Positions 3,622 to 44,233 of a stretch of DNA of 64,000 bases are shown one piece after another. The notes below the pieces were generated by a model, which worked only from the letters and a program-made list of their open reading frames with translations, searched no databases and had not been told where the DNA came from. The translations under genes and the position numbers were made by a program. Every line of letters begins with the position of its first letter. Positions within the stretch are counted from its first letter, which is position 1. The DNA comes from Antedon mediterranea (lineage: Eukaryota > Echinodermata > Crinoidea > Comatulida > Antedonidae): the NCBI RefSeq assembly GCF_964355755.1, contig NC_092674.1:1679001-1743000 (forward strand). Direction: 5' to 3'.

Positions 3622-4452
3622 CTAAAAAGAAGAAGATGATGATGATGTGTGTATTTTCAAATGTGTTTTAATATTCCCATTCCGGTTAAATTTCTTCCCA
3701 CAATGTTCACATTCATATGCTGTCTCTTCTGTGTGTATTCTTAAATGTGTTTTTAAATTCCCACTTTCTCTGAATTTCTTTCCACAATGCTCACATTCAT
3801 ATGGCGTCTCTCCTGTGTGTATTCTCAAATGTGTTTTTATATTCCCACTGTCTCTGAATTTCTTCCCACAATGTTCACATGCATATGGTGTTTCTCCTGT
3901 GTGTATTCTCAAATGCATTTTCAAATCCCCATTTTGTTCAAATTCCTTCCCACAATGTTCACATTCATATGGTGTCTCTCTCCTGTGTGTATTTTCAAAT
4001 GCATTTTAAATCCCCATTTTGTTCAAATTCCTTCCCACAATGTTCACATTCATATGGTGTCTCTCTCCTGTGTGTATTTTCAAATGCATTTTAAATCCCC
4101 ACTTTTTCAAAATTTCTTCCCACAATGTTCACATTCATATGGTGTCTCTCCTGTGTGTATTCTCAAATGCATTTTTAAATCCCTGTTTTGTTTAAATTTC
4201 TTCCCACAATGTTCACATTCATATGGTGTCTCTCCTGTGTGTATTTTCAAATGCGTGTTCAAATTTTCACTATTTTTAAATTTCTTCCCACAATGTTCAC
4301 ATTCATATGGTGTCTCTCCTGTGTGTATTTTCAAATGCGTGTTCAAATTTTCACTATTTTTAAATTTCTTCCCACAATGTTCACATTCATATGGTGTCTC
4401 TCCTGTGTGCATTTTTAAATCCCCATTTTGTTTAAATTTCTTCCCACAATGT
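3622..4452 (-). pseudogene. frame-broken C2H2 zinc-finger tail of the 4453-6873 gene
   Basis: Minus-strand DNA continues the 84-bp finger repeat of the adjacent gene, but the frame is lost. A 2-bp deletion near 4455 ends the upstream ORF. The resumed frame (4107-4460) has a finger missing three linker-side residues, then meets a TGA near 4107. Two consecutive units (around 3970-4030 and 4060-4095) each carry the same 1-bp deletion in the ATTTTTAAATCCCC segment and the same 2-bp CT insertion in the linker codons. A last open stretch (3622-3924) keeps about three good fingers and ends in a serine run. This is most simply a decayed 3' end of the array. Assembly error in a repeat is an alternative, but the shared lesions argue for real mutation. 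Confidence 0.75.
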
Positions 4453-6873
4453 TCATTCATATGGTGTCTCTCCTGTGTGTATTTTCAAATGCGTGTTCAA
4501 ATTCCGACTATTTTTAAATTTCTTCCCACAATGTTCACATTCATATGGTGTCTCTCCTGTGTGCATTCTCAAATGCATTTTCAAATACCCACTCTTTTTA
4601 AATTTCTTCCCACAATGTTCACATTCATATGATGTCTCTCCTGTGTGTATTCTCAAATGTCTTTTCAAATTCCCATTCCGGTTGAATTCCTTCCCACAAT
4701 GTTCACATTCATATGGTGTCTCTCCTGTGTGTATTTTCAAATGCATTTTTAAATCCCCATGTTGTTTAAATTCCTTCCCACAATGTTCACATTCATATGG
4801 TGTTTCTCCTGTGTGTATTCTCAAATGCGTGTTCAAATTCCCACTATTTTTGAATTTCTTTCCACAATGTTCACATTCATATGGTGTCTCTCCTGTGTGT
4901 ATTCTCAAATGCATTTTCAAATCCCCATTTTGTTTGAATTTCTTCCCACAATATTCACATTCATATGGTGTCTCTCCTGTGTGTATTCTCAAATGTGCTT
5001 TCAAACTCCCAATCTGGTTGAATTTCTTCCCACAATGCTCACATTGATATGGTGTCTCTCCTGTGTGTATTCTTAAATGTGTTTTCAAACTCCCATTCCG
5101 GTTGAATTTCTTCCCACAATACTCACATTCATATGGTGTCTCTCCTGTGTGTATTCTCAAATGTGTTTTTAAATTCGCACTTTCTCTGAATTTCTTCCCA
5201 CAATGTTCACATTCATATGGTGTTTCTCCTGTGTGTATTCTCAAATGAATTTTCAAATCCCCATTTTGTTTAAATGTCTTCCCACAATGTTCACATTCAT
5301 ATGGTGTCTCTCCTGTGTGTATTCTCAAATGTCTTTTCAAACTCCCATTCCGGTTGAATTTCTTCCCACAATGCTCACATTCATATGGTGTCTCTCCTGT
5401 GTGTATTCTCAAATGTGTTTTCAAACTCCCATTTCGTTTGAATTTCTTTCCACAATGTTCACATTCATATGGTGTCTCTCCTGTGTGTATTCTCAAATGT
5501 GCTTTCAAACTCCCATTTCGTTTGAATTTCTTTCCATAATGTTCACATTCATATGGTGTCTCTCCTGTGTGTATTCTCAAATGTGTTTTCAAATTCCCAC
5601 TTGCTTTAAATTTCTTCCCACAATGTTTACATTCATATGGTGTTTCTCCTGTGTGTATTCTCAAATGCTTCTTCAAATTCCAACTTTCTCTGAATTTCTT
5701 CCCACAACAATGTTCACATTCGTATGGTGTCTCTCCTGTACGTATTCTCGAATGTCTTTTCAAATGCCCACTTACTTTAAATTTCTTCCCACAACGCTCA
5801 CATTGATATGGTGTGTCTCCCGTGTGTATTTTCAAATGTGTTTTCAAACGCACACTTTGTTTAAATTTCTTCCCACAATGTTCACATTCATATGGTGTCT
5901 CTCCTGTGTGTATTCTCAAATGAGTTTCCAAATGCTCATTCCGGTTAAATTTCTTCCCACAATGTTCACATTCATATGGTGTCTCTCCTGTGTGTATTCT
6001 CAGATGTCTTTTCAAACTCCAAATTTGTTTAAATGTCTTCCCACAATGTTCACATTGATATGGTGTCTCTCCTGTGTGTATTCTCAAATGAGTTTCCAAA
6101 TGCTCATTCCGGTTAAATTTCTTCCCACAATGTTCACATTCATATGGTTTCTCTCCTGTGTGTATTCTCAAATGTCTTTTCAAATGCGAACTTGCTTTAC
6201 ATTTCTTCCCACAATGTTCACATTCATATGGCGTCTCTCCTGTGTGTATTCTCAAATGTATTTTCAAATTCCCAATCTGGTAGAATTTCTTCCCACAATG
6301 CTCACATTGATATGGTGTCTCTCCCGTGTGTATTTTCAAATGTGTTTTCAAACGCACACTTTGTTTAAATTTTTTCCCACAATGTTCACATTCATATGGT
6401 GTCTCTCCTGTGTGTATTCTCAGATGTGTTTTCAAACTCCCACTTTGTTTAAATTTCTTTCCACATTGTTCACATTCATATGGTGTCTGTCCTGTGTGTA
6501 TTCTCAAATGTGTTTTCAAATTCCAACTTACTTTAAATTTCTTTCCACAATGCTCACATTCATATGGTGTTTCTCCTGTGTGTATTCTCAAATGTCTTTT
6601 CAAATGCCCACTATCTTTAAATTTCATCCCACAATGTTCACATTCATATGGTGTCTCTCCTGTGTGTATTCTCAAATGTGTTTTCAAATTCCCACTATTT
6701 TTAAATTTCTTCCCACAACGTTCACATTCATATGGTGTCTCTCCCGTGTGTATTCTCAAATGGGTTACACATTTGTTAAACTCTTCTGTCCGAGAATGTG
6801 TATGTATTCCTAAATGTAACTTTAAATCATTGAACTCAAATTTATCTCCACAGTGCTCACATTTAAATTTCAT
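4453..6873 (-). CDS. polydactyl C2H2 zinc-finger protein, 806 aa
   Basis: Single-exon ORF. The N-terminus holds a short-looped zinc finger (CX2CX11HX3H, residues 5-24) shared with the paralogue at 17591. About 27 C2H2 fingers of 28 residues follow, joined by a near-invariant TGETPYECEHCGKKF linker and frame. Such arrays bind DNA; no KRAB, BTB, SCAN or SET domain is present. Within fingers, variation is concentrated at the helix contact positions (-1, 3 and 6), for example KQNGDLKMH, NRNEHLETH and KVSWNLKTH. Three fingers are damaged: one ends HSRIR (last His lost), one has an extra Cys (CEHCCG) and one reads CEHYG (Cys lost). The start is fixed by the conserved MK-[F/Y]-KCEHCGDKF opening. The ORF ends early at a 2-bp deletion, and the array continues out of frame to 3622. 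The target sequence is unknown; transcription or transposon control is inference. Confidence 0.85.
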   Translation of the reverse strand: MKFKCEHCGDKFEFNDLKLHLGIHTHSRTEEFNKCVTHLRIHTGETPYECERCGKKFKNSGNLKTHLRIHTGETPYECEHCGMKFKDSGHLKRHLRIHTGETPYECEHCGKKFKVSWNLKTHLRIHTGQTPYECEQCGKKFKQSGSLKTHLRIHTGETPYECEHCGKKFKQSVRLKTHLKIHTGETPYQCEHCGKKFYQIGNLKIHLRIHTGETPYECEHCGKKCKASSHLKRHLRIHTGEKPYECEHCGKKFNRNEHLETHLRIHTGETPYQCEHCGKTFKQIWSLKRHLRIHTGETPYECEHCGKKFNRNEHLETHLRIHTGETPYECEHCGKKFKQSVRLKTHLKIHTGDTPYQCERCGKKFKVSGHLKRHSRIRTGETPYECEHCCGKKFRESWNLKKHLRIHTGETPYECKHCGKKFKASGNLKTHLRIHTGETPYECEHYGKKFKRNGSLKAHLRIHTGETPYECEHCGKKFKRNGSLKTHLRIHTGETPYECEHCGKKFNRNGSLKRHLRIHTGETPYECEHCGKTFKQNGDLKIHLRIHTGETPYECEHCGKKFRESANLKTHLRIHTGETPYECEYCGKKFNRNGSLKTHLRIHTGETPYQCEHCGKKFNQIGSLKAHLRIHTGETPYECEYCGKKFKQNGDLKMHLRIHTGETPYECEHCGKKFKNSGNLNTHLRIHTGETPYECEHCGKEFKQHGDLKMHLKIHTGETPYECEHCGKEFNRNGNLKRHLRIHTGETSYECEHCGKKFKKSGYLKMHLRMHTGETPYECEHCGKKFKNSRNLNTHLKIHTGETPYE

Positions 6874-7337
6874 GTTTGTTGGTTTTACTGTACTAGCAAC
6901 ATATTAATTATTATACACGCGAGTCATACAGTACTTGACATATTATCTCTAGGAACTAGTCATATACCTAGGCATAGAGTACTACTTCGTAAAGGCTATA
7001 TATAGTAGATCCTAGTTTACTACTACTACTACTAGAAGTACAGGCCTAGCCTACTAGTACAGTACTACTCCGCCGATCAGACTCCTGCCGCCGTTAACCC
7101 TCCGGGGCGGTAGGCCAGGCCTAGGTAGGCTAGCTAGCTAGACCTGTGTTTTATGATAACAATGATATCAAGTACACGTTTACTAACATGCTCTAGTAGT
7201 AAATTTATATATATATATATACATATATAAACATTCTGTATATTCTTTCTTAGCTTTCCAGAAACAATTTAAAATCAATTAAACTACTGTTATTAGACTT
7301 TTCATTGGTTCTGAATTAAACGCGTCAATTGTTCCTC
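6874..7337. other. presumed 5' flank of the minus-strand zinc-finger gene
   Basis: Rich in CTAGTAGTA and AGGCCTAGG motifs, with a short GC-rich patch near 7080-7110 and an AT dinucleotide run near 7206-7230. Promoter function is inferred only from position upstream of the ATG at 6873. Confidence 0.35.
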
Positions 7338-9660
7338 AATTAGTCCAGATCCCTATGTATTTTCGTGTGCAGATCATGGGGAAAGTGTAAACATTGTGTT
7401 TTATGAATATTTCAATCATGCTGGTTATAAAAACCCATGTTGTCAAATTTCTAAAATTCATCTTTGACCTCTGACCTCAATTTGAATGTTTTGACCCATT
7501 GAAAACAAAATGATCATATCTTTGCAACGCTTAGATTAAATGAAATAATTTTAGTGTCAAATTATTTGGGAGATGCATATTAATATTCGTTCTAATGAAA
7601 AAGTTTGTCCAAAAATGGCTGGAAGTATGATTTTTGGCATATTTGACCTTTGACCTACATATCATATAACTCCGTAACTAATAGTTGGACAAACTTTAAA
7701 TAGGGCTCAAATTAATCTGAAGGTATATGTTTCTATTCAGTCTAATAAGAACTTTTAAAAGAAAATGACCCGAAATATTTTTATTGACCTTTGACCTGTA
7801 CTGGTAGTACATATTTCTATAATCTCAAAAACTATTGGCCGTAAAATGGTTGTTTTTGTGAAATGGTTCGAACAATTTACATTTATATGTTTATAATAAC
7901 AACATTTTATAGAAATGTTAAAGAATTTTATTTATGATCACTAACTTTGTAATTTATTAACATCACTAGCATTTGTTATAATATTAAAATGTGTCATATT
8001 TGCTGATTTTACGCACTTCACATGAATTTATCAGAAAATATGTGTATTTAATATAATGTTGTTTTTTTTTTATATAAAGACAATTTAATTATCTATCAAA
8101 TAAGACTATTTTCAAATTATTATGGCTAAAACTTAATTAGATACAGGCAAAAAAGTGTATTTTTACTTATGTGAACAGCGCCCTCAATCTTCATTTTTTC
8201 CCAAAAAATACCACATTTTTATGTGGTTTCATAAACTTAGCTGGTTGTAACTTTTTAAAAGATTTGTTGTCAGTGACGTGTAACTTACATACACCTTCTA
8301 CCATATACTAAGTAAGTTTCTGAGATAAAATGAAAACAATGTTTTTATAGCTTGATATTTTTCCTGAGGTTATTACATGGTGCATGCTAAAAATATTTTG
8401 ATTTTGTGCTAAAAATCCATCTTTTTGGTCCAGTACAAACAATCTTGTACAGCCATTCTTACACAAACAGCATATTTTATTGGAAAGATAATCATAATAT
8501 CTATCCAATAAAATATGAATTTTGTGTATTATATCTGCTAGATAGCTTTTATTAAACCAAAAAGATGGACTTTTAGCTCAAAATTAAAATTTTTTTTTTG
8601 TGTGTATCATGTAATAACCTCAACAAAAATATCAAGCTATCGGAATATTTTTCTCATTTTTTTCAGAAACTGACCTAGTACGTTATAAAAGAGGTATGTA
8701 AATTAGAGGTTACTTTAAAAAGTCTTTAAAACAAAGTTATAACCTGTTTAGTTCAGGAAAACACATAAAAATGTGGTATTTTTTGGGAAAAAATGAAGAT
8801 TGAGGGCGCTGTTCACACAAGTAAAAATACACTTTTTTGCCTGTATCTAATTAAGTTTTAGCCATAATAATTTGAAAATAGTCTTATTTGATAGACAATT
8901 AAATTTTCTTTATATAAAAAAAAAAAAACTTTATATTAAATACACATAATTCTGATAAATTCATGTGAAGTGCTTAAAATCAGCAAATATAACACATTTT
9001 AATATTATAACAAATGCTAGTGATGTTAATAAATTATAAAGTTAGTGATCATAAATAGAATTCTTTTACATTTCTATAAAATGTTGTTATTATACAACAT
9101 ATAAATGTAAATTGTTCAAACCATTTCACAAAAACAACCATTTTACGGCCAATAGTTTTTGAGATTATAGAAATATGTACTACCAGTACAGGTCAAAGGT
9201 CAATAAAAATATTTCGGGTCATTTTCTTGTAAAAGTTCTTATTAGACTGAATAGAAACATATACGTTCAGATTAATTTGAGCCCTATTTAAAGTTTGTCC
9301 AACTATTAGTTACGGAGTTATATGATATGTAGGTCAAAGGTCAAATATGCCAAAAATCATACTTCCAGCCATTTTTGGACAAACTTTTCCATTAGAACGA
9401 ATATTAATATGCATCTCCCAAATAATTTGACACTAAAATTATTTAATGTAATCTTAGCGTTGCAAAGATATGGTCATTTTGTTTTCAATGGGTCAAAACA
9501 TTCAAATTGAGGTCAGAGGTCAAAGATGAATTTTAGAAATTTGACAACATGGGTTTTTATAATCAGCATGATTCAAATATTCATAAAACACAATGTTTAC
9601 ACTTTCCCCATGATCTGCACACGAAGGCACTTTTTTTGACATAGGGATCTGGACTAAATT
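7338..9660. repeat. 2.3-kb near-perfect palindrome (long inverted repeat)
   Basis: Two arms of about 1.16 kb meet at a centre near 8493/8494 with essentially no spacer. Checkpoints: AGATCATGGGG at 7371 pairs with CCCCATGATCT ending at 9616. AATTAGTCCAGATCC near 7338 pairs with its complement ending at 9660. The GAACAGCGCCCTCAATCTTC segment near 8174 has its complement near 8796. Arms differ by scattered substitutions and small indels. Each arm carries three TGACCTTTGACC-type motifs (near 7470, 7643 and 7789, mirrored near 9510, 9332 and 9190). The short ORFs inside are not conserved between arms. A foldback transposon or arm-duplication palindrome are the main options; a transcript would form a long hairpin. 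Confidence 0.9.
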
Positions 9661-10281
9661 GTCATCAGCAGGCAGCGCATGCAGCAGCAGATTCCCGCAG
9701 CAGCCACCGCCCGCCGACACGATGATCGCCCCACCACCCCCCACAACTGAAACACAAATCGCTTATCACAGAGGGCGGTCTTCTTCAATTTCGGAATAAA
9801 CCTAATCAGTATTTTGACAGTTTTCTCCATAAATAAAACGTACAATTAATTAACTACACCTATCACAATAACAAACATTAAATATAAATTTACAAATTTA
9901 CAAACATTAATAAAAGGATTACAAAAGTACTATGTTTTAAATATTTTAGTAAAGGCATTTTTTGGATACGTAATTATAAAAACACGTTTCTTTTATTAGA
10001 CGTTACGAACATTTCTATTGTCCTCCTAGCCTTTATTTTTTGAAAACGTTTTAAACACCATATTTGTAAAACTTTTCTTGAATCAAGATCAACATTTAAT
10101 TTTTTTCATTATGTCTTTTCAAAGTTTATAAAACTATTTCTAAGACGTCTTCTTAAAAGTTTTAATTTGATTTGTCTTAAAAAAGGTTTAAATCAAGTTA
10201 TCTAAACTTTTTGTCTTAAAAGTCCATGTCCTTTCAATGTCTTACAAACCTTCAAAAACGTTTTTAAAGACCATGTAAACA
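9661..10281. other. intergenic, no gene recognised
   Basis: A GC-richer patch at 9661-9750, containing GCAGC repeats, borders the palindrome. The remainder is AT-rich, with no supported coding or RNA feature. Confidence 0.4.
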
Positions 10282-10906
10282 AAGCCCGTAGCCAGCGAAC
10301 GAGGGTTTGAAAGAAGCACCTTTTTTTCCTACAGTGCCTCCTTCACACCAGAGACCAGCAGTGAAAGTTCTAGTAAATGACTTATTATAATTTTTTGGCT
10401 AATCCTGTCTGAGCCATCAGGCAAATTATTTAGGTATAAACATTTTTCTTCAGTTACTTTATTCTCCAGACTCTTGCACTCCCCTTTTGAAATAAATGCT
10501 AAATAAGTCAGTAAAACCACAATTTCCAAAAAATAAATTTCAATTATCCACTATAAACTGTAAAACAGTGTTGCTTAAACCACACTCCAGAAAAGAAAAT
10601 ATCGAAATTTGGCCAATTATTACGGACATGGGAAACTTGAAGATATACCTTCTCATGATGCACAAGCAATCTAAACAGTCAGAAATTCATTCTGAGCATG
10701 TTAGAAACATAATTATATCTACATATAATATATCTGTGCGCGGTATTGTTGACTGCTAGTTAATTGTACGCTGCGGTCTGTCAATTTACATATAGGCTCT
10801 TGATAATGATGAAATTGGATCTAAATTTTAATTTTTTGGCAAAAAAAACATTTAGTATGAAATTAAGGGTGTTCCCCCTGTGTCCGCCCCTGCTGGCTAC
10901 GGGCTT
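10282..10906. mobile_element. non-autonomous element with GTAGCCAG termini
   Basis: Perfect 15-bp terminal inverted repeats, AAGCCCGTAGCCAGC at 10282-10296 and its complement at 10892-10906. The interior has no recognisable transposase. The same terminal motif recurs at 29758, 60561, 61588 and 63898, so this is a dispersed family. Confidence 0.6.
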
Positions 10907-10959
10907 GTGTTTAAAAGGTTACACTATAACGTTTTATTTATTTACACTATTGGTATGTC

Positions 10960-11300
10960 AAGATTTACATGTATTTGGGACGTTTCTGAAACATATTACA
11001 AACGTTAGAATCAAGAGCATGAGAGGAGTGAAGAGAGAATGGTTAAGAGAATATGTCGATGAGTTTATGTGGCCTACGGCAAGAATTTAGGTTGACAACA
11101 TCTGCAGGATCCATTGCATTTTATAAATTTTCATAAATCATCATTTTATTCCACCAGTAAAAGTTTCATGTCAAACCACGATGAACTAATATAACAATGA
11201 TAAGTTTAATATGTACGGTAATTTATATTTTATTATGTGAATAAATATACAATACTAAAATACTGATTATTGAGGAATAGCAAAACTAATTTTGAATTAA
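10960..11300. repeat. diverged duplicate of 12080-12990, possible transposase relic
   Basis: Direct-orientation similarity to 12080-12990, for example AAGAGCATGAGAGGAGTGAA, ATCCATTGCATTTTAT and TACGGTAATTTATAT in both. Here the plus strand can be read as RIKSMRGVKREWLREYVDEF (11010-11070). This resembles the C-terminal YVDEFMW-type motif of ISXO2/Merlin-like DDE transposases. That family link is a weak pattern match over a short peptide. Confidence 0.4.
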
Positions 11301-11549
11301 TTTTATTTATGTTTTAATGTTCTATAATACTGTAAAATTGGATCGAAACAAACAAATTATTTACATGAAAAAAATGTAATTTAAAGCAAAATATAGTAAA
11401 CTTGGCAGCCAGCCAGTTTTTGGTCTATTTTAACCAATGTCTTTTTTTTTTCTTCTGCAGAAGTGACTAACTTAACTAGTAGGCCCTATAGGAACAATCT
11501 GATTTAATGCCAGATAACTTGTGATGTAGATATAATGTATGATCAAGTT

Positions 11550-11935
11550 AATATTGTAGTACATACATTTAATACAGTTTAAAATGGTATTTTTTATTAT
11601 TAAATTGGCAGGTAAATTTCTAAAAAATCCTAATTGTAGTAGCAATTCACATTTACAGCATTCATTTCGAAAAGAAGTCCCTTTTCTTTTACTTACTATT
11701 AAGTCAAATTTTTGAGATAGTAAATTGAAAAAACAAAATCTATGTCAACATTTCAACAAAGCTAATGCTAATGTTTATTTTTTTCTATATTTTTTAAATG
11801 AAATTTATTATTGAACAATAAAATAATAATATAATTGATTGCCGAGATTAATTTATTTTTTAAGTGAAAAGAAAACAAACAAAACAAAAGATTTAGGCCT
11901 ATTGTTAAAAATATTTATTGTTTTTACTTGAAAGA
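11550..11935. repeat. dispersed repeat, second copy
   Basis: Same family as 2741-3235 (shared TACAGTTTAAAATGGTATTT and ACAGCATTCATTTCGA). Non-coding. Confidence 0.55.
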
Positions 11936-12168
11936 CGACATCAGAACTCTGTAACAGGGACACAGCCAGCAAAGCATTTTTCTTCAGTTGCTTACTCTCT
12001 TGCACTTTTCTTCAGTTGCTTACTCTCTTGCACTTTTCCTATTTGCAGGAAAAAGAACCCCTACAAAAATCCTGGCTACGGTTAGAAAGGTTACACTATA
12101 CTATGGAAGTAAGGATTTTAAACGTTTATTTTCAAACGCTAGAACCAAGAGCATGAGAGGAGTGAAGA

Positions 12169-12815
12169 TGGTTTGGAGAATAAGTGGATGAGGTGTCTTA
12201 TACGTTAGCTTGACAACATCTTGACAGCAGAATGCTTTGGAGAATAAGTGGATGAGGTGTCTTATACGTTAGCTTGACAACATCTTGACAGCAGAATGCT
12301 TTGGAGAATAAGTGGATGAGGTGTCTTATACGTTAGCTTGACAACATCTTGACAGCAGAATGCTTTGGAGAATAAGTGGATGAGGTGTCTTATACGTTAG
12401 CTTGACAACATCTTGACAGCAGAATGCTTTGGAGAATAAGTGGATGAGGTGTCTTATACGTTAGCTTGACAACATCTTGACAGCAGAATGCTTTGGAGAA
12501 TAAGTGGATGAGGTGTCTTATACGTTAGCTTGACAACATCTTGACAGCAGAATGCTTTGGAGAATAAGTGGATGAGGTGTCTTATACGTTAGCTTGACAA
12601 CATCTTGACAGCAGAATGCTTTGGAGAATAAGTGGATGAGGTGTCTTATACGTTAGCTTGACAACATCTTGACAGCAGAATGCTTTGGAGAATAAGTGGA
12701 TGAGGTGTCTTATACGTTAGCTTGACAACATCTTGACAGCAGAATGCTTTGGAGAATAAGTGGATGAGGTGTCTTATACGTTAGCTTGACAACATCTTGA
12801 CAGCAGAATCCATTG
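12169..12815. repeat. 64-bp tandem array, about 10 units
   Basis: A 64-bp unit (for example 12181-12244, containing GGATGAGGTGTCTTATACG) repeats about 9.8 times with no variation that I can see. The unit lies inside the duplicate of 10960-11300, which has only one diverged copy of the corresponding segment. The array therefore arose after that duplication and is recent or strongly homogenised. Confidence 0.95.
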
Positions 12816-14059
12816 CATTTTATTACTTCTTTTTTTTTAACAGATAATAAATCGTCATCATTTTATTCCAACAGTAAAAGTTTTAGGTCAAACAACGATT
12901 AACTAATTCAACAATGAGAATTTACGGTAATTTATATTTCATTATTTTTTATACTGATACGGATGTATACAAAAACTAATTTATTTGTTGTTGTTATGTC
13001 ATTTTATTCTTTGTACTTTAAATGCTGTCCTGTACATTATGCTCCTCTCCCTCGGGAGACTGTTTATGTTGACTAAACTAAATAACGTTGTACAATCAAC
13101 CGTTACTTTGCTGATTACAGTAACGTTCCCATGTTGTATTTTTGTTAGCATTAGTAATGCCGTTATTTAACGTTGGGCCGACATCATTTTGATTCAATGG
13201 TTATGGGAAACGTTGTATTGTATACTAATCCTTGTTTTTACAAATACTGTACTGTAAATAGCTGGATTTAAATATTTTTTTTTTTCGCGCCTTGCCATGC
13301 CCCGCTTAAGGTACAAATTTGTCTTAGGATTTTACTTTCTTAGTGGTTTAATTCAAATAATAGATACAACGTACAGTTAACAAATTTAGAGTTAAAATAC
13401 AAGACGAAAGAGAAATATTGGTCTTGGGTTCGTTATCTTAGGTTTCGTGACACCCTACAGTTAACATTACTCTTATACGCACTACTGTAAATGTAAAACC
13501 TAACTCATAAAACAACGGATCCCACCAAAATTGCCGTTTACTTGCTATCTGGGAATGCGATACAATTAATTAAATTGTGTTCTGATGTAAATATATTTTT
13601 TCAAATATATCCATAGTACTTCATTCTAATAGTAATTGAATAACAAGTGCTTTCGATTTATTTATAATTTACATTTTATTTATATCTAGTAGTGCTTATA
13701 GAATAATATATAATATAATTGGGATATTTTATAATGCTCAATACTGGCTTCTAGGTAGCTTACACAAGAATGTTCATGTCTTAGCATTGCAGCCTGCATG
13801 AATTATTACAGTTCAGAAAAATGTACAACATTTAAATGGACAAATTTCAGAATGTTTGTGTCTGAACAACTGATATTCTTTTTTTCCGTAACCACAACTT
13901 GAAAACGAGTCTAAATTGCCGATTTAAATAAAACAATTTTGCATGTATAGAATTCAAATCCTTAACAACTGTGTCCTCATGCATGCCTCTTCCAAACAGC
14001 ATTAAGCCATGTGCTATTTGATTGTACATATTTGAATTATGTTATGTCTGTTAGTTGGC
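12816..14059. other. intergenic and probable 3' UTR of the CARF-like gene
   Basis: 12816-12990 completes the duplicated segment. The rest is AT-rich with no recognised gene. TTTATT (AATAAA on the minus strand) near 13666-13680 could serve the minus-strand gene ending at 14060. Confidence 0.35.
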
Positions 14060-17000
14060 CTACTGATTAGTAAAAGGGATGGCTTCTTTTGAAGAAATGT
14101 CATTTTTTGTGTAAGAATTTGAGCAATGTAGAGCTATTGGTGTTGCCACGACGATGTCATTGTTGCTCGGTGGTGCCATGTAGCTTGGCATTAGTTGAAC
14201 TGAATTGTTTGAAAGCTGCTCTTGTGGATTTTGCGAAAAAAGTTGGGAATTTTGTTTTTGTGATTGAGAAGTATGTAGACTTATTGGTTGTTGTAGATTG
14301 TTAATTTGATGATTTTGTAGTAGTGATTGCTGGTTGTTTTGCTGTTGCGGCATCATATCCACTATTTCTTGAAACATGTCAGGCATTGATGTTATGTTGT
14401 CAAAACTTTTTGGACCACTATCATCTCTATTTGTGAAAGATTGCGTAGTCAAAGATTGCAATACCTCTGCAGCTGCTAAATCCGTATTTATCATATCCAT
14501 CTCTTCTGAATTTTTACAAATTCCATCTTCATTTAAATCCCTATGGGAACCAGCATGTGAATCTTGTGTTGAAATACATGGAATCGGTTTCCTAGGTAAT
14601 GAAGATTTTTTATCCAATTTCTCATGGAACTGTTTACGAATATTTTCAATCTGTTGCAGCAATTCTGTCAATAATTGGACATCCTGGCATTTTTGTGTCA
14701 GATTCTTAATTTCCTTCAACTCAGACCGTACATTCGAAGCTGTATTGCTCAACAAACGAACATGTTTAGGCGATGAAGGACGCTCAGTTTCATCCTGTGA
14801 TTGTGCTTTCTGTGCATTCACAGCAAGGTAAATGTGATTTCGCACCGTTTTCTCATCTGGGTAATATGACCTGTCATAGCTCAAACCAAATAAATAACGT
14901 TTACCCTTTTTTGCACATTCTAATTCAACAAGCTGGTTAATATGATGCTGAACATTTTTAATGGCGGTAATCCCCTCGTTGACTAAATTCTGTATGCACG
15001 TCACCACAAACGGGTTTATTTTACACAATTTATTATTCATACCGATGTCGTGTCCAGAGTGTACTTTTGGATAAGGTAATCGTAAGTAATACCGCTTAAG
15101 GTACTTTACTTTCCCAGATTTCATTTCATTCTGCAAACGATTAATTATTTTTTCTCTTGCCTTTCTTTTTGCATGATCGGTTGAATCCTCTGCAAATGTA
15201 GGCTGTAAAACATCAAAATGTGTAACTATTATCTGTGTAACGTCTATAATTAATTAAACTCTAATTTGGTGACATTAAAGATGTATTCAGGTAAATTTTT
15301 TTTTTCCGATCCAGGTTTATTATTATTTATTACGTGACATTAAAATGGCATATTGAAAAACAAATTTAGGAGGAATATATATCTTTAAAAAGTGATTTAC
15401 AGTACCTTATATTCAGCAAATATCCATAACTCTTTCAGTTCAATAACAGCTTTACAATCTTTTTTAATTGACTTTCTTTTTCTTCTTTTTTTCTTTGATG
15501 ATTCGTTATCAACAATCTACAAAAATAAATATTCCGTTTTACTACACATATTATTACAGGGTATACAGAGTACAGTTTCTACTTTCCTTCTGTATTTTTT
15601 ACCAAAGTGATAAATTTAATGACATACAGTATAAATTTTATCCACCCCAACAACCCAAAATTTGATCTCAGATATTGAATGAGAATTCCATAATATTAGC
15701 TGTATGTAATTATATTATTATGGAAATAAAGATTCAGAGTCAACCACTCCACAACAATAAATTATTACTTTGCTGCAATGTCTTTTTCTACTGCTGCCAC
15801 AAGCATCTGTTGGTTCCTGCTCTTCCACTTCTAAGGCATCTGTTTCAATCACATCTACGGCATCGTCACTTGTTTTATTAGGATCCTTTTTTACCCGTCG
15901 TGTACTTTTAAATGAGCAAACTCGTCTCTCGTAAGCTTGTATGATAAATGGCATGCCAAGATTTGGTAGTTTTAACCACCCATTTCGACTCTGCCATAAT
16001 ATTCGACACTGAGCTGAAAAAAAACCACACCATCATTTCAAAATAAATAAGGACTTACTAGCCCCTAGTAGTAGTTAGTACTCTTGATTAAATATATAAT
16101 AATATTAATTAATACATAAATAAGTAAGTTTAGCTTTATCAGTAATATAGCAGAAATGTTAAAAAAATAACATTATCCTACACTAAAACTCTACTAACAC
16201 TATCAAACTAGGATTAGGCCTCTGTAATGTATGTAGTAGGCCTACCACGTTCTAGATAGCCATCATTATACTATTAGTTTACTAAAAAGTACTAGACTAG
16301 GCCTATATAGGCCTATATATATACAGTTTTATATAACACCTAAATAAATTCCTGTCATTTGATTGGACGAATGTGGGTCACATGGCGTGCAATAGTACGC
16401 ACTATTCAACGATCGTTAAATAGTACTTTTTGAAAATAACTAGAATTTATTTAGATGTTATATAAAACAAATAATGAATGTTTTGTATTCGTGTAATGGT
16501 ACAAATAATGGCACTTGGTGAATGATGAAAGGTTATATCAACTCGGCTTTGCCTCATTGATATAACCTTTCATCATTCACCTCGTGCCATTATTTGTACC
16601 ATTGCACTCATAAACATTCATTATTTGTATAATAGGCGCACCTATAATAGGCTTTAGGCCTATAGTAGAGTATTATGTATAATTACTATTAATTAGGCCC
16701 TTAACTAGTTATATTTTAACCTACTCTCTAATGCTCCAGGGCATTTCTGCCCACTTTGTTTTGATCGTACGTCTGTTTGCGGTTTTGCAGTATCTTCGTC
16801 AGGGCTACGATTATCATTTACATCTGCTAGGCTCTTTCCTGGTTCAAATTCTCGTAGTCGGAGCTGGGTTGTAAGGCCACTTCGCCTCCACGAGTCTCGA
16901 ATGCTAAAGCCAACCCCTCCAGCTCGCTTGTAATCTTCCAAAAAGGTATACAAAATCTCACTTCCTTCAACATAACCAATAACAAAATCTCCATCTTCTT

Positions 17001-17196
17001 CTTTTTCTTTTAAATACTCATTAAATACATGTTTCACTCGTTCATTTATTTGTTCTAGGCCTTCGTTTTCCACTCTTTCTTCGCTTGGTGAAACATTCAT
17101 TATTCCCGGAAATGTAAAATATGACGTCCAGCACGCCCTCATTTTTGGTTTGAAAAAGGAGGATCGGAGCGGATTATTGATTGAAAATGAAAACAT
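14060..17196 (-). CDS. CARF/ALS2CR8-domain protein, 4 exons, about 656 aa
   Basis: Exons 17196-16725, 16013-15769, 15516-15406 and 15202-14060 have GT-AG borders and compatible phases, and sum to 1,971 nt in frame. Exon 1 has GVGFSIRDSWRR; exon 2 opens with RILWQSRNGW then PFIIQAYERRVCSF; exon 3 is a lysine/arginine-rich stretch. Exon 4 holds NPFVVTCIQNLVNEGI and the YYPDEKTVRNHIYLA motif. These match the layout of the domain in calcium-responsive transcription factor (CARF/ALS2CR8) and its many invertebrate relatives. The last 200 residues are Q/N/S-rich and probably disordered, as in activation domains. The first ATG (17196) is used; 17100 (MNVSPSEE) is an alternative start. Intron 1 holds two inverted-repeat elements. 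A nuclear DNA-binding role is inferred from the family. Confidence 0.75.
16326..16468. mobile_element. MITE-like element in intron 1 of the CARF-like gene
   Basis: Terminal inverted repeats GTTTTATATAACACCTAA at the left and its near-complement ending TATAAAAC at 16468. The internal sequence (CATGGCGTG, CGATCGTTAAATAGT) recurs in opposite orientation at 49160-49255. Non-coding. Confidence 0.65.
16468..16627. repeat. 160-bp hairpin palindrome
   Basis: Arms of about 70 bp pair almost fully: CAAATAATGAATG at 16468 with CATTCATTATTTG ending at 16627, and GAATGATGAAAGGTTATATC with its complement near 16560. The loop is only about 16 nt. It abuts the preceding MITE and may be part of one composite foldback element. 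It would form a stable stem if transcribed. Confidence 0.75.
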
Positions 17197-17590
17197 ACAA
17201 TTAAAAATGTTGAAATAGATTTAGGCTTAGCTAGTAGTATCATTCAAGCTTTTCTCAATATATATATCCTTGTTAAAATGAGGGCATTTTATGACTGTGT
17301 AGTAGTTAATATTACTAATAAGCTTAGGCCTACTAGTTGATCCAGCTAGTACTACCACTGGGCCTACTTTCTAGGTGAGAAGGGTACTATCAGGATAGGC
17401 ATTAGACTTGGCCTGAATTGAAAACCAGCCAACCCAACCTGTGGACCGGGTCGGTTCGTACTCAGTTGCTTTGTAAAATTATTATTGCATATGAAACGAA
17501 ATCGCAATAGGCTCCAAGTATAGGCCTGAATACCATCACATTCACAGCATTACAAAACAAAAACATACCTAGGCCTATAAAAACAATAAC
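17197..17590. promoter_or_regulatory. divergent intergenic region, CARF-like gene / zinc-finger gene
   Basis: 394 bp separate the minus-strand ATG at 17196 from the plus-strand ATG at 17591. It holds AGGCCTA-type motifs and a possible splice acceptor (TTCACAG near 17540) just before the zinc-finger ATG. A shared promoter is inferred from geometry only. Confidence 0.35.
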
Positions 17591-19720
17591 ATGAAATATA
17601 AATGTGAACACTGTGGAGATAAATTTGATTTCAGTGATTTGAAGTTACATTTAGGAATACATACACAGTCTCAGACAGAAGAGTTCAACAAATGTTCACG
17701 CCGTGTATATACATTTTATAAAGATGATATCGACTTGCATGGGCAAACACCATATGAATGTGAACTGTGTGGTAAGGAATTCAACCAGAATGGGAAATTA
17801 AAAAGGCATTTGAGAACACACACAGGAGAGACACCATATGAATGTGAACATTGTGGGAAAAAATTTACCCAAAATGGAGCTTTGAAAATACATTTGAGAA
17901 TTCACACAGGAGAGACACCATATGAATGTGAACATTGTGGAAAGAAATTTACACAAAATGGGATATTGAAAATACATTTGAGAATTCACACAGGAGAGAC
18001 ACCATATGAATGTGAACATTGTGGAAAGAAATTTAGAAAAAGTGGGGATTTGAAAAGACATTTGAGAATACACACAGGAGAGACACCATATGAATGTGAG
18101 CATTGTGGGAAGAAATTCAAAGACAGTGGGCATTTAAAAGCACATTTGAGAATTCACACAGGAGAGACACCATATGAATGTGAACATTGTGGGAAGAAAT
18201 TTAGAATAAGTGGGAGTTTAAAAATGCATTTGAGAATACACACAGGAGAGACACCATATGAATGTGAACATTGTGGGAAGAAATTTAAACGAAATGCGAA
18301 TTTAAAAACACATTTGAAAATACATACAGGAGAGACACCATATGAATGTGAGCATTGTGGGAAGAAATTTAGAATAAGTGGGAGTTTGAAAATGCATTTG
18401 AAAATACACACAGGAGAGACACCATATGAATGTGAACATTGTGGGAAGAAATTTAAACAAAATGGGAATTTTAAAACACATTTGAAAATACACACAGGAG
18501 AGACACCATATGAATGTGAACATTGCGGAAAGAAATTTAGAACAAATGGGGAATTGAAAATGCATTTGAGAATACACACAGGAGAGACACCATATGAATG
18601 TGAACATTGTGGGAAGAAATTTAAACAAAATGGGAATTTCAAAACACATTTGAAAATACACACAGTAGAGACACCATATGAATGTGGACATTGTGGGAAG
18701 AAATTCAAAAAGAGTGGGTATTTGAAAATGCATTTGATAAAACACAGAGGAGAAACACCATATGAATGTGATCATTGTGGAAAGAAATTTAAAAAGAGTG
18801 GGTATTTGAAAATGCATTTGAGAATACACACTGGAGAGACACCATATGAATGTGAACATTGTGGGAAGAAATTTAAAAAGAATGGGCATTTAAAAAAACA
18901 TTTGAGAATACACACAGAAGAGACACCATATGAATGTGCACATTGTGGGAAGAAATTTAGAAAACGTGGGGATTTGAAAATGCATTTGATAATACACACA
19001 GGAGAGACACCATATGAATGTGAACACTGTGGGAAGAAATTTAAACAAAATGGAAATTTGAAAATGCATTTGAGAATACACACAGGAGAGACACCATATC
19101 AATGCGAAAATTGTGGGAAGAAATTTAAACAAAACGGGGATTTGAAAACGCATTTGAGAATACACACAGGAGAGACACCATATGAATGTGAACATTGTGG
19201 GAAGAAATTTAAACAAAATGGGACTTTGAAAACACATTTGAGAATACACACAGGAAAGACATCATATGAATGTGAACATTGTGGGAAGAAATTCAAAAAG
19301 AGTGGGTATTTGAAAATGCATTTGATAATACACACAGGAGAGACACCATATGAATGTGAACATTGTGGGAAGAAATTTAGAAGAAGTGGGGAATTGAAAA
19401 CACATTTGAGAATACACACAGGAAAGACATCATATGAATGTGAACATTGTGGGAAGAAATTTAGAAGAAGTGGGGAATTGAAAATGCATTTGAGAATACA
19501 CACAGGAGAGACACCATATGAATGTGAACATTGTGGGAAGAAATTTAAACAAAATGGGACTTTAAAAACACATTTGAGAATACACACAGGAAAGACATCA
19601 TATGAATGTGAACATTGTGGGAAGAAATTCAAAAAGAGTGGGTATTTGAAAATGCATTTGATAATACACACAGGAGAGACATCACATGATTTTGTACCAA
19701 ATGTTTTAATAGATGTTTAA
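17591..19720 (+). CDS. polydactyl C2H2 zinc-finger protein, 709 aa
   Basis: Intact single-exon paralogue of the gene at 4453-6873, with the same N-terminal short-looped finger (CX2CX11HX3H) and the EEFNKC motif. 23 canonical 28-residue C2H2 fingers run from about residue 57 to 700. Linkers are TGETPYECEHCGKKF with a few TGKTSYE variants. All canonical fingers appear to keep both Cys and both His. Helix positions -1, 3 and 6 vary (QNGNLKT, ISGSLKM, KSGYLKM, DSGHLKA, RSGELKT) while the framework is nearly fixed. Fingers 19-20 and 23-24 are practically identical, including their unusual TGKTSYE linkers, so the 3' end expanded recently. The protein ends in a short finger-free tail (SHDFVPNVLIDV). 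Sequence-specific nuclear DNA or RNA binding is expected; targets are unknown and no effector domain is visible. Confidence 0.92.
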   Translation: MKYKCEHCGDKFDFSDLKLHLGIHTQSQTEEFNKCSRRVYTFYKDDIDLHGQTPYECELCGKEFNQNGKLKRHLRTHTGETPYECEHCGKKFTQNGALKIHLRIHTGETPYECEHCGKKFTQNGILKIHLRIHTGETPYECEHCGKKFRKSGDLKRHLRIHTGETPYECEHCGKKFKDSGHLKAHLRIHTGETPYECEHCGKKFRISGSLKMHLRIHTGETPYECEHCGKKFKRNANLKTHLKIHTGETPYECEHCGKKFRISGSLKMHLKIHTGETPYECEHCGKKFKQNGNFKTHLKIHTGETPYECEHCGKKFRTNGELKMHLRIHTGETPYECEHCGKKFKQNGNFKTHLKIHTVETPYECGHCGKKFKKSGYLKMHLIKHRGETPYECDHCGKKFKKSGYLKMHLRIHTGETPYECEHCGKKFKKNGHLKKHLRIHTEETPYECAHCGKKFRKRGDLKMHLIIHTGETPYECEHCGKKFKQNGNLKMHLRIHTGETPYQCENCGKKFKQNGDLKTHLRIHTGETPYECEHCGKKFKQNGTLKTHLRIHTGKTSYECEHCGKKFKKSGYLKMHLIIHTGETPYECEHCGKKFRRSGELKTHLRIHTGKTSYECEHCGKKFRRSGELKMHLRIHTGETPYECEHCGKKFKQNGTLKTHLRIHTGKTSYECEHCGKKFKKSGYLKMHLIIHTGETSHDFVPNVLIDV

Positions 19721-20762: not shown

Positions 20763-44233
<23,471 letters not shown>

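Follow-up and report, generated by a model that had tools for sequence, protein, structure and literature searches.

A polydactyl C2H2 zinc-finger gene family in Antedon mediterranea with a shortened start finger and positive selection at DNA-contact positions

Genes A and B, two zinc-finger genes in the 64,000-nucleotide stretch of Antedon mediterranea DNA analysed here (the window), come from a polydactyl C2H2 family whose members number about 100 or more. Helix positions −1, 3 and 6 of their fingers evolve under positive selection, and the finger framework and the start module are constrained. New members arise through duplication in tandem and in blocks, and duplications inside the finger arrays reshape these. 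What is new is the Antedon family itself and the use of a shortened finger as its common start module.

Results

Genes A and B

Gene B lies in a single open frame (17573–19720, plus strand) with its first Met at 17591 and 23 canonical modules (Table 1). The open frame of gene A runs on the minus strand from 6903, through a first Met at 6873, to a stop at 4453; its 27 modules are ~28 residues each, two without a ligand and one with an extra Cys. Gene A fingers run on in other frames to 3622, and the stop at 4453 is therefore read as a frameshift-created one in a decaying 3' array. Both genes begin with MK[FY]KCEHCGDKF[ED]F[NS]DLKLHLGIHT, in which 11 residues, instead of 12, separate the Cys from the His, and continue in arrays whose linker is mostly TGETP. 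The odd common N-terminal finger and the ~28-residue modules with a TGETP linker, both described in the first-pass annotation, are thus upheld in each gene. The two genes are sister members of the family and local inverted duplicates, and they pair in the start-region tree with a support of 0.79. Several fingers within A and within B match fingers of the same gene at 81–84 of 84 positions, evidence of internal duplication.

The Pfam matches listed for A and B are all to C2H2-type families or to other small families that bind zinc, and the start modules contain no Pfam match to KRAB, ZAD, SCAN, BTB or SET. The early observation that neither gene carries KRAB, SET or BTB therefore stands. SET is absent from a coding exon that begins at the short finger, and a genome-wide search for KRAB gave no match, with control genomes that were uninformative. 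Searches of the assembly for COX1 and RAG1 were likewise negative.

Table 1. Features of genes A and B (window positions) and genomic clusters of the family
Feature	Sequence	Position	Strand	Basis
Coding exon of gene A (short N-terminal finger and 27 canonical-type finger modules)	window	4453..6873	minus	ORF + Pfam
Gene A family-defining N-terminal finger, C-X2-C-X11-H-X3-H	window	6802..6873	minus	
Gene A array of 28-residue fingers, TGETP linkers	window	4456..6732	minus	
Gene A 3' finger-array remnant, several small frameshifts and stops	window	3622..4452	minus	
Coding exon of gene B (short N-terminal finger, short linker and 23 canonical fingers)	window	17591..19720	plus	
Gene B family-defining N-terminal finger	window	17591..17662	plus	
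Gene B array of 28-residue fingers	window	17753..19690	plus	
Family clusters	C1	4.97-5.40 and 8.03-8.52 Mb		
Family clusters	C2	32.87 and 34.77 Mb		
Family clusters	C5	2.92, 9.24 and 10.53-10.60 Mb		
Family clusters	C7	7.9 and 22.8 Mb		
Family cluster	C8	23.1 Mb		
Family cluster	C9	0.26 Mb		
Family clusters	C11	1.36 and 17.46 Mb		

Distribution of the family

A search of the 354-Mb genome with the 54-residue start of gene B finds the signature at 104 places (E ≤ 1.1e-4, counted from the match list), which refutes the possibility that the pair has no further relatives. Together with the missing KRAB, SET and BTB domains, this count supports a large family, independently expanded as was proposed. 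The loci lie mostly in same-strand tandem clusters, and the clades of the start-region tree follow these clusters. Most members carry 5 to 54 canonical fingers after a variable linker. Among the 86 genes read, 74 have at least five canonical fingers and 53 at least ten; these counts refer to the stretch read and are lower bounds for some arrays. The 8.17–8.43 Mb region of C1 holds about six copies of a block of four genes, and these copies differ by less than 1–2% in places.

Some C1 loci depart from the usual layout. Five of them (L046, L047, L048, L051 and L082, at 8.23–8.51 Mb) hold 12–27 copies of a degenerate 25-residue module, YECEHEKEGNRNLKKHLSTNTGETP, which has lost its second Cys and second His and lies in frame between the start finger and the canonical array; its omega is 0.60 (0.40–0.95, 25 pairs). 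Four others (L085, L086, L087 and L091, at 8.25–8.42 Mb) have a 112-residue open reading frame consisting of the start module and linker, with no canonical fingers. They are either truncated genes or finger-less variants, and their sister copies L089 and L090 carry six fingers.

The start module

The start finger has 24 residues, one fewer than a canonical C2H2 finger, and the missing residue falls between the conserved Phe and Leu, where the recognition helix begins. In the alignment of the 86 N-termini read, numbered without the start Met, K3, C4, E5, C7, L16 and H19 are invariant and most other positions nearly so. Three lines of evidence describe this module. First, the position of the start Met is fixed across the family and the sequence upstream is unconserved; in L030–L032 an in-frame stop adjoins the Met with no splice acceptor between them, so translation starts at the Met of the short finger. 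Second, among 49 distinct DNA versions pS is 0.36 and pN 0.12 (omega 0.33), which argues that purifying selection, not recent origin, keeps the module uniform. The stretch between the module and the canonical fingers, by contrast, shows free variation in length and in sequence. Third, the module resembles a classical finger: in PDB profile searches it matches classical C2H2 fingers, and the alignments have a gap of one residue. Pfam searches of start modules alone return weak zinc-finger matches, all below cut-off, and an AlphaFold model of the start region, made from the A and B sequences alone, has a weak beta-beta-alpha trace (pLDDT 53).

Two loci carry unusual versions of the module. L005, in a related cluster at 20.2–20.4 Mb of C6, has a start version with part of the finger missing, and L098, at 0.277 Mb of C9, is a divergent gene with a start-type finger inside a longer N-terminus, possibly near the ancestral form.

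Variation and selection in the fingers

Across 1046 fingers from 80 family genes, entropy peaks at helix positions −1, 3 and 6 (3.13, 2.98 and 3.24 bits), where the first-pass annotation had placed the variation. Positions 2 (2.58 bits), 1 and 10 vary too. The annotation had also called the framework nearly fixed. This holds for the protein, in which most framework positions have an entropy below 1.2 bits, but not for the DNA: within A and within B, pS is ~0.16–0.17 against a pN of 0.04, so selection maintains the framework, and its uniformity is not just a matter of recent origin.

Counting tests of selection give the same contrast between contact and framework positions in each comparison. 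Nearest-neighbour finger pairs have an omega of 1.37–1.91 at −1, 3 and 6, where the confidence intervals exclude 1, against 0.38–0.43 for the framework. In 30 disjoint paralogue pairs, contact omega is 1.34 (95% CI 1.10–1.62) with the contact positions' own dS, a value only modestly above 1 that depends on few synonymous changes (54.7), and 1.86 (1.54–2.19) with pooled dS, against a framework value of 0.31. Both estimates are given because position 10, between the two His, looks high with its own dS in the nearest-neighbour finger pairs but not against framework dS (pN 0.027, pS 0.034). For A and B alone, contact omega is 1.35 and framework omega 0.29 (Fisher p=3e-4 for the contrast). The proposition that contact positions have no nonsynonymous excess is accordingly refuted.

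Discussion

Comparison with known zinc-finger systems

Lineage-specific polydactyl ZNF families under contact-residue selection are already known, and positive selection at −1, 3 and 6 has been described in poly-ZF expansions (PMC2604467). The Antedon genes, presumably lineage-specific too, are of this kind, with at least five tandem C2H2 fingers in most genes read (27 in A, 23 in B), clustered duplication and contact dN/dS above 1. They are less usual in one respect: the module by which the family is defined is a finger itself, in modified form.

The pattern was initially likened to PRDM9 and to KRAB zinc-finger genes, and only the second likeness is close. KRAB zinc-finger genes share the clustered duplication, long arrays and contact-residue selection (PMC2604467), although the Antedon genes have no KRAB domain. 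The FiNZ-ZNF genes of cyprinid fish are also close: they number in the hundreds, stand in tandem, encode many C2H2 fingers behind a short conserved N-terminal module and have contact residues under positive selection (PMC10547256). However, FiNZ is an acidic 28-residue sequence in its own exon, without similarity to known domains (PMC10547256), whereas the Antedon module, a C2H2 finger that has been shortened, shares its exon with the array; as judged by module type and exon layout, it is not a separate upstream exon of the FiNZ type. Insect ZAD zinc-finger genes likewise place a zinc-binding N-terminal module before a C2H2 array, but ZAD is a longer C4 domain and has no match in the Antedon start modules. 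PRDM9 is a poor match. Its near-identical tandem fingers are also diversified at −1, 3 and 6, yet it carries KRAB and SET domains and usually exists as a single gene, unlike a family of ~100 genes without SET.

Proposed function and alternatives

The genes have one main coding exon, which supplies a near-invariant shortened C2H2 finger, a variable linker and then, in most members, the canonical array. We propose that the arrays read long DNA sites and, to judge from KRAB-ZNF and FiNZ-ZNF genes, that selection favours new sites, which are most likely to lie in transposons. The start module may be a shared protein-contact module for dimerisation or co-repressor recruitment, with a role like that of KRAB, ZAD or FiNZ elsewhere; its shortened helix start and the low variation there suggest that it is not a direct base reader. 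This account of a lineage-specific, contact-selected family, with likely transposon sites and a start finger as partner module, concerns a family known from one genome and draws on analogy, and we consider it somewhat probable as a whole. It is possible, but rather doubtful, that the family evolved independently as a ZNF system of genome defence and that the effector common to its members is a shortened C2H2 finger taken over from the array, in place of a distinct domain like KRAB, ZAD or FiNZ. Should the start finger be the recruiting module, it would show a repressor domain arising from an ordinary finger. The family also adds another independent lineage for testing whether transposon conflict drives ZNF expansion.

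FiNZ-ZNF genes repress transposons (PMC10547256). According to Wells et al., the ZNFs of zebrafish, sea urchin, octopus and rice weevil have a predicted preference for TEs, and among animals the number of ZNFs follows that of retroelements (PMC10547256); the Antedon family is thus an expected kind of finding. A correspondence between predicted motifs and the repeats of the window, suggested at first pass, did not emerge: under a coarse, generic recognition code, the real motifs score below the mean of finger-order shuffles, a null on the window that says little either way. No target is therefore claimed, and transposon recognition is put forward by analogy with the KRAB and FiNZ systems.

The family may instead diversify for host-gene regulation or for heterochromatin or satellite functions, as fly ZAD-ZNFs do, with the start finger as a dimerisation module. 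The genomic pattern of clusters, conserved N-terminal zinc module and variable arrays is the same, and by its sequence the Antedon start module belongs to the zinc fingers. TEs do not seem to be targets of fly ZAD-ZNFs (PMC10547256), which counts against TE targeting as a universal rule. The young duplicate blocks and continuing positive selection suit an arms race better, although they are not decisive, and we judge the host-function explanation unlikely.

Transposon-site diversification must also be weighed against relaxed constraint, under which contact variation would reflect tandem-repeat recombination in a partly decaying family, with no adaptive diversification. The decaying 3' array of gene A and the members without canonical fingers are consistent with such decay, and single-position omega with own dS in the nearest-neighbour finger pairs is only 1.17–1.60 at −1 and 1.25–1.78 at 6, with few synonymous changes each. 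Relaxation alone, however, gives an omega of at most 1. The joint omega at −1, 3 and 6 exceeds 1, its confidence intervals do not reach down to 1 in either of the two designs or with pooled dS, and setting kappa to 2 as a transition correction raises it. Relaxed constraint is already disfavoured and seems quite improbable.

Least credible is a ubiquitin-binding start finger. UBZ3-type fingers have the C-X2-C-X11-H-X3-H spacing, and UBZ fingers need an Asp between their two His; the Antedon start finger has the same spacing and an acidic D-L-K before its first His, but the Asp is replaced by Gly in 82 of the 86 members, the UBZ Pfam match reaches 13.1 bits against a cut-off of 25.6 in one of four start modules tested, and the PDB profile matches are classical C2H2 fingers, so this highly improbable identity is rejected.

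Other elements in the window

Rfam has no match within the window. Between the two zinc-finger genes, a minus-strand open reading frame (14060–15253) encodes an ALS2CR8 (CARF-like) domain (E=2.8e-9), and minus-strand exons at 20763–26155 look like those of a putative MRP-type ABC transporter, to judge from the open reading frame translations. Upstream of gene B lies a short hairpin (16486–16612), whose 56-nt arms are separated by 15 nt. Just upstream of gene A is a near-perfect 2.26-kb palindrome (7362–9625), whose two 1.13-kb arms are mostly 94–98% complementary but have diverged more in the centre. Its copies, several tens in number and about 89–100% identical, are spread over many chromosomes, which points to a young foldback-type or MITE-like element.
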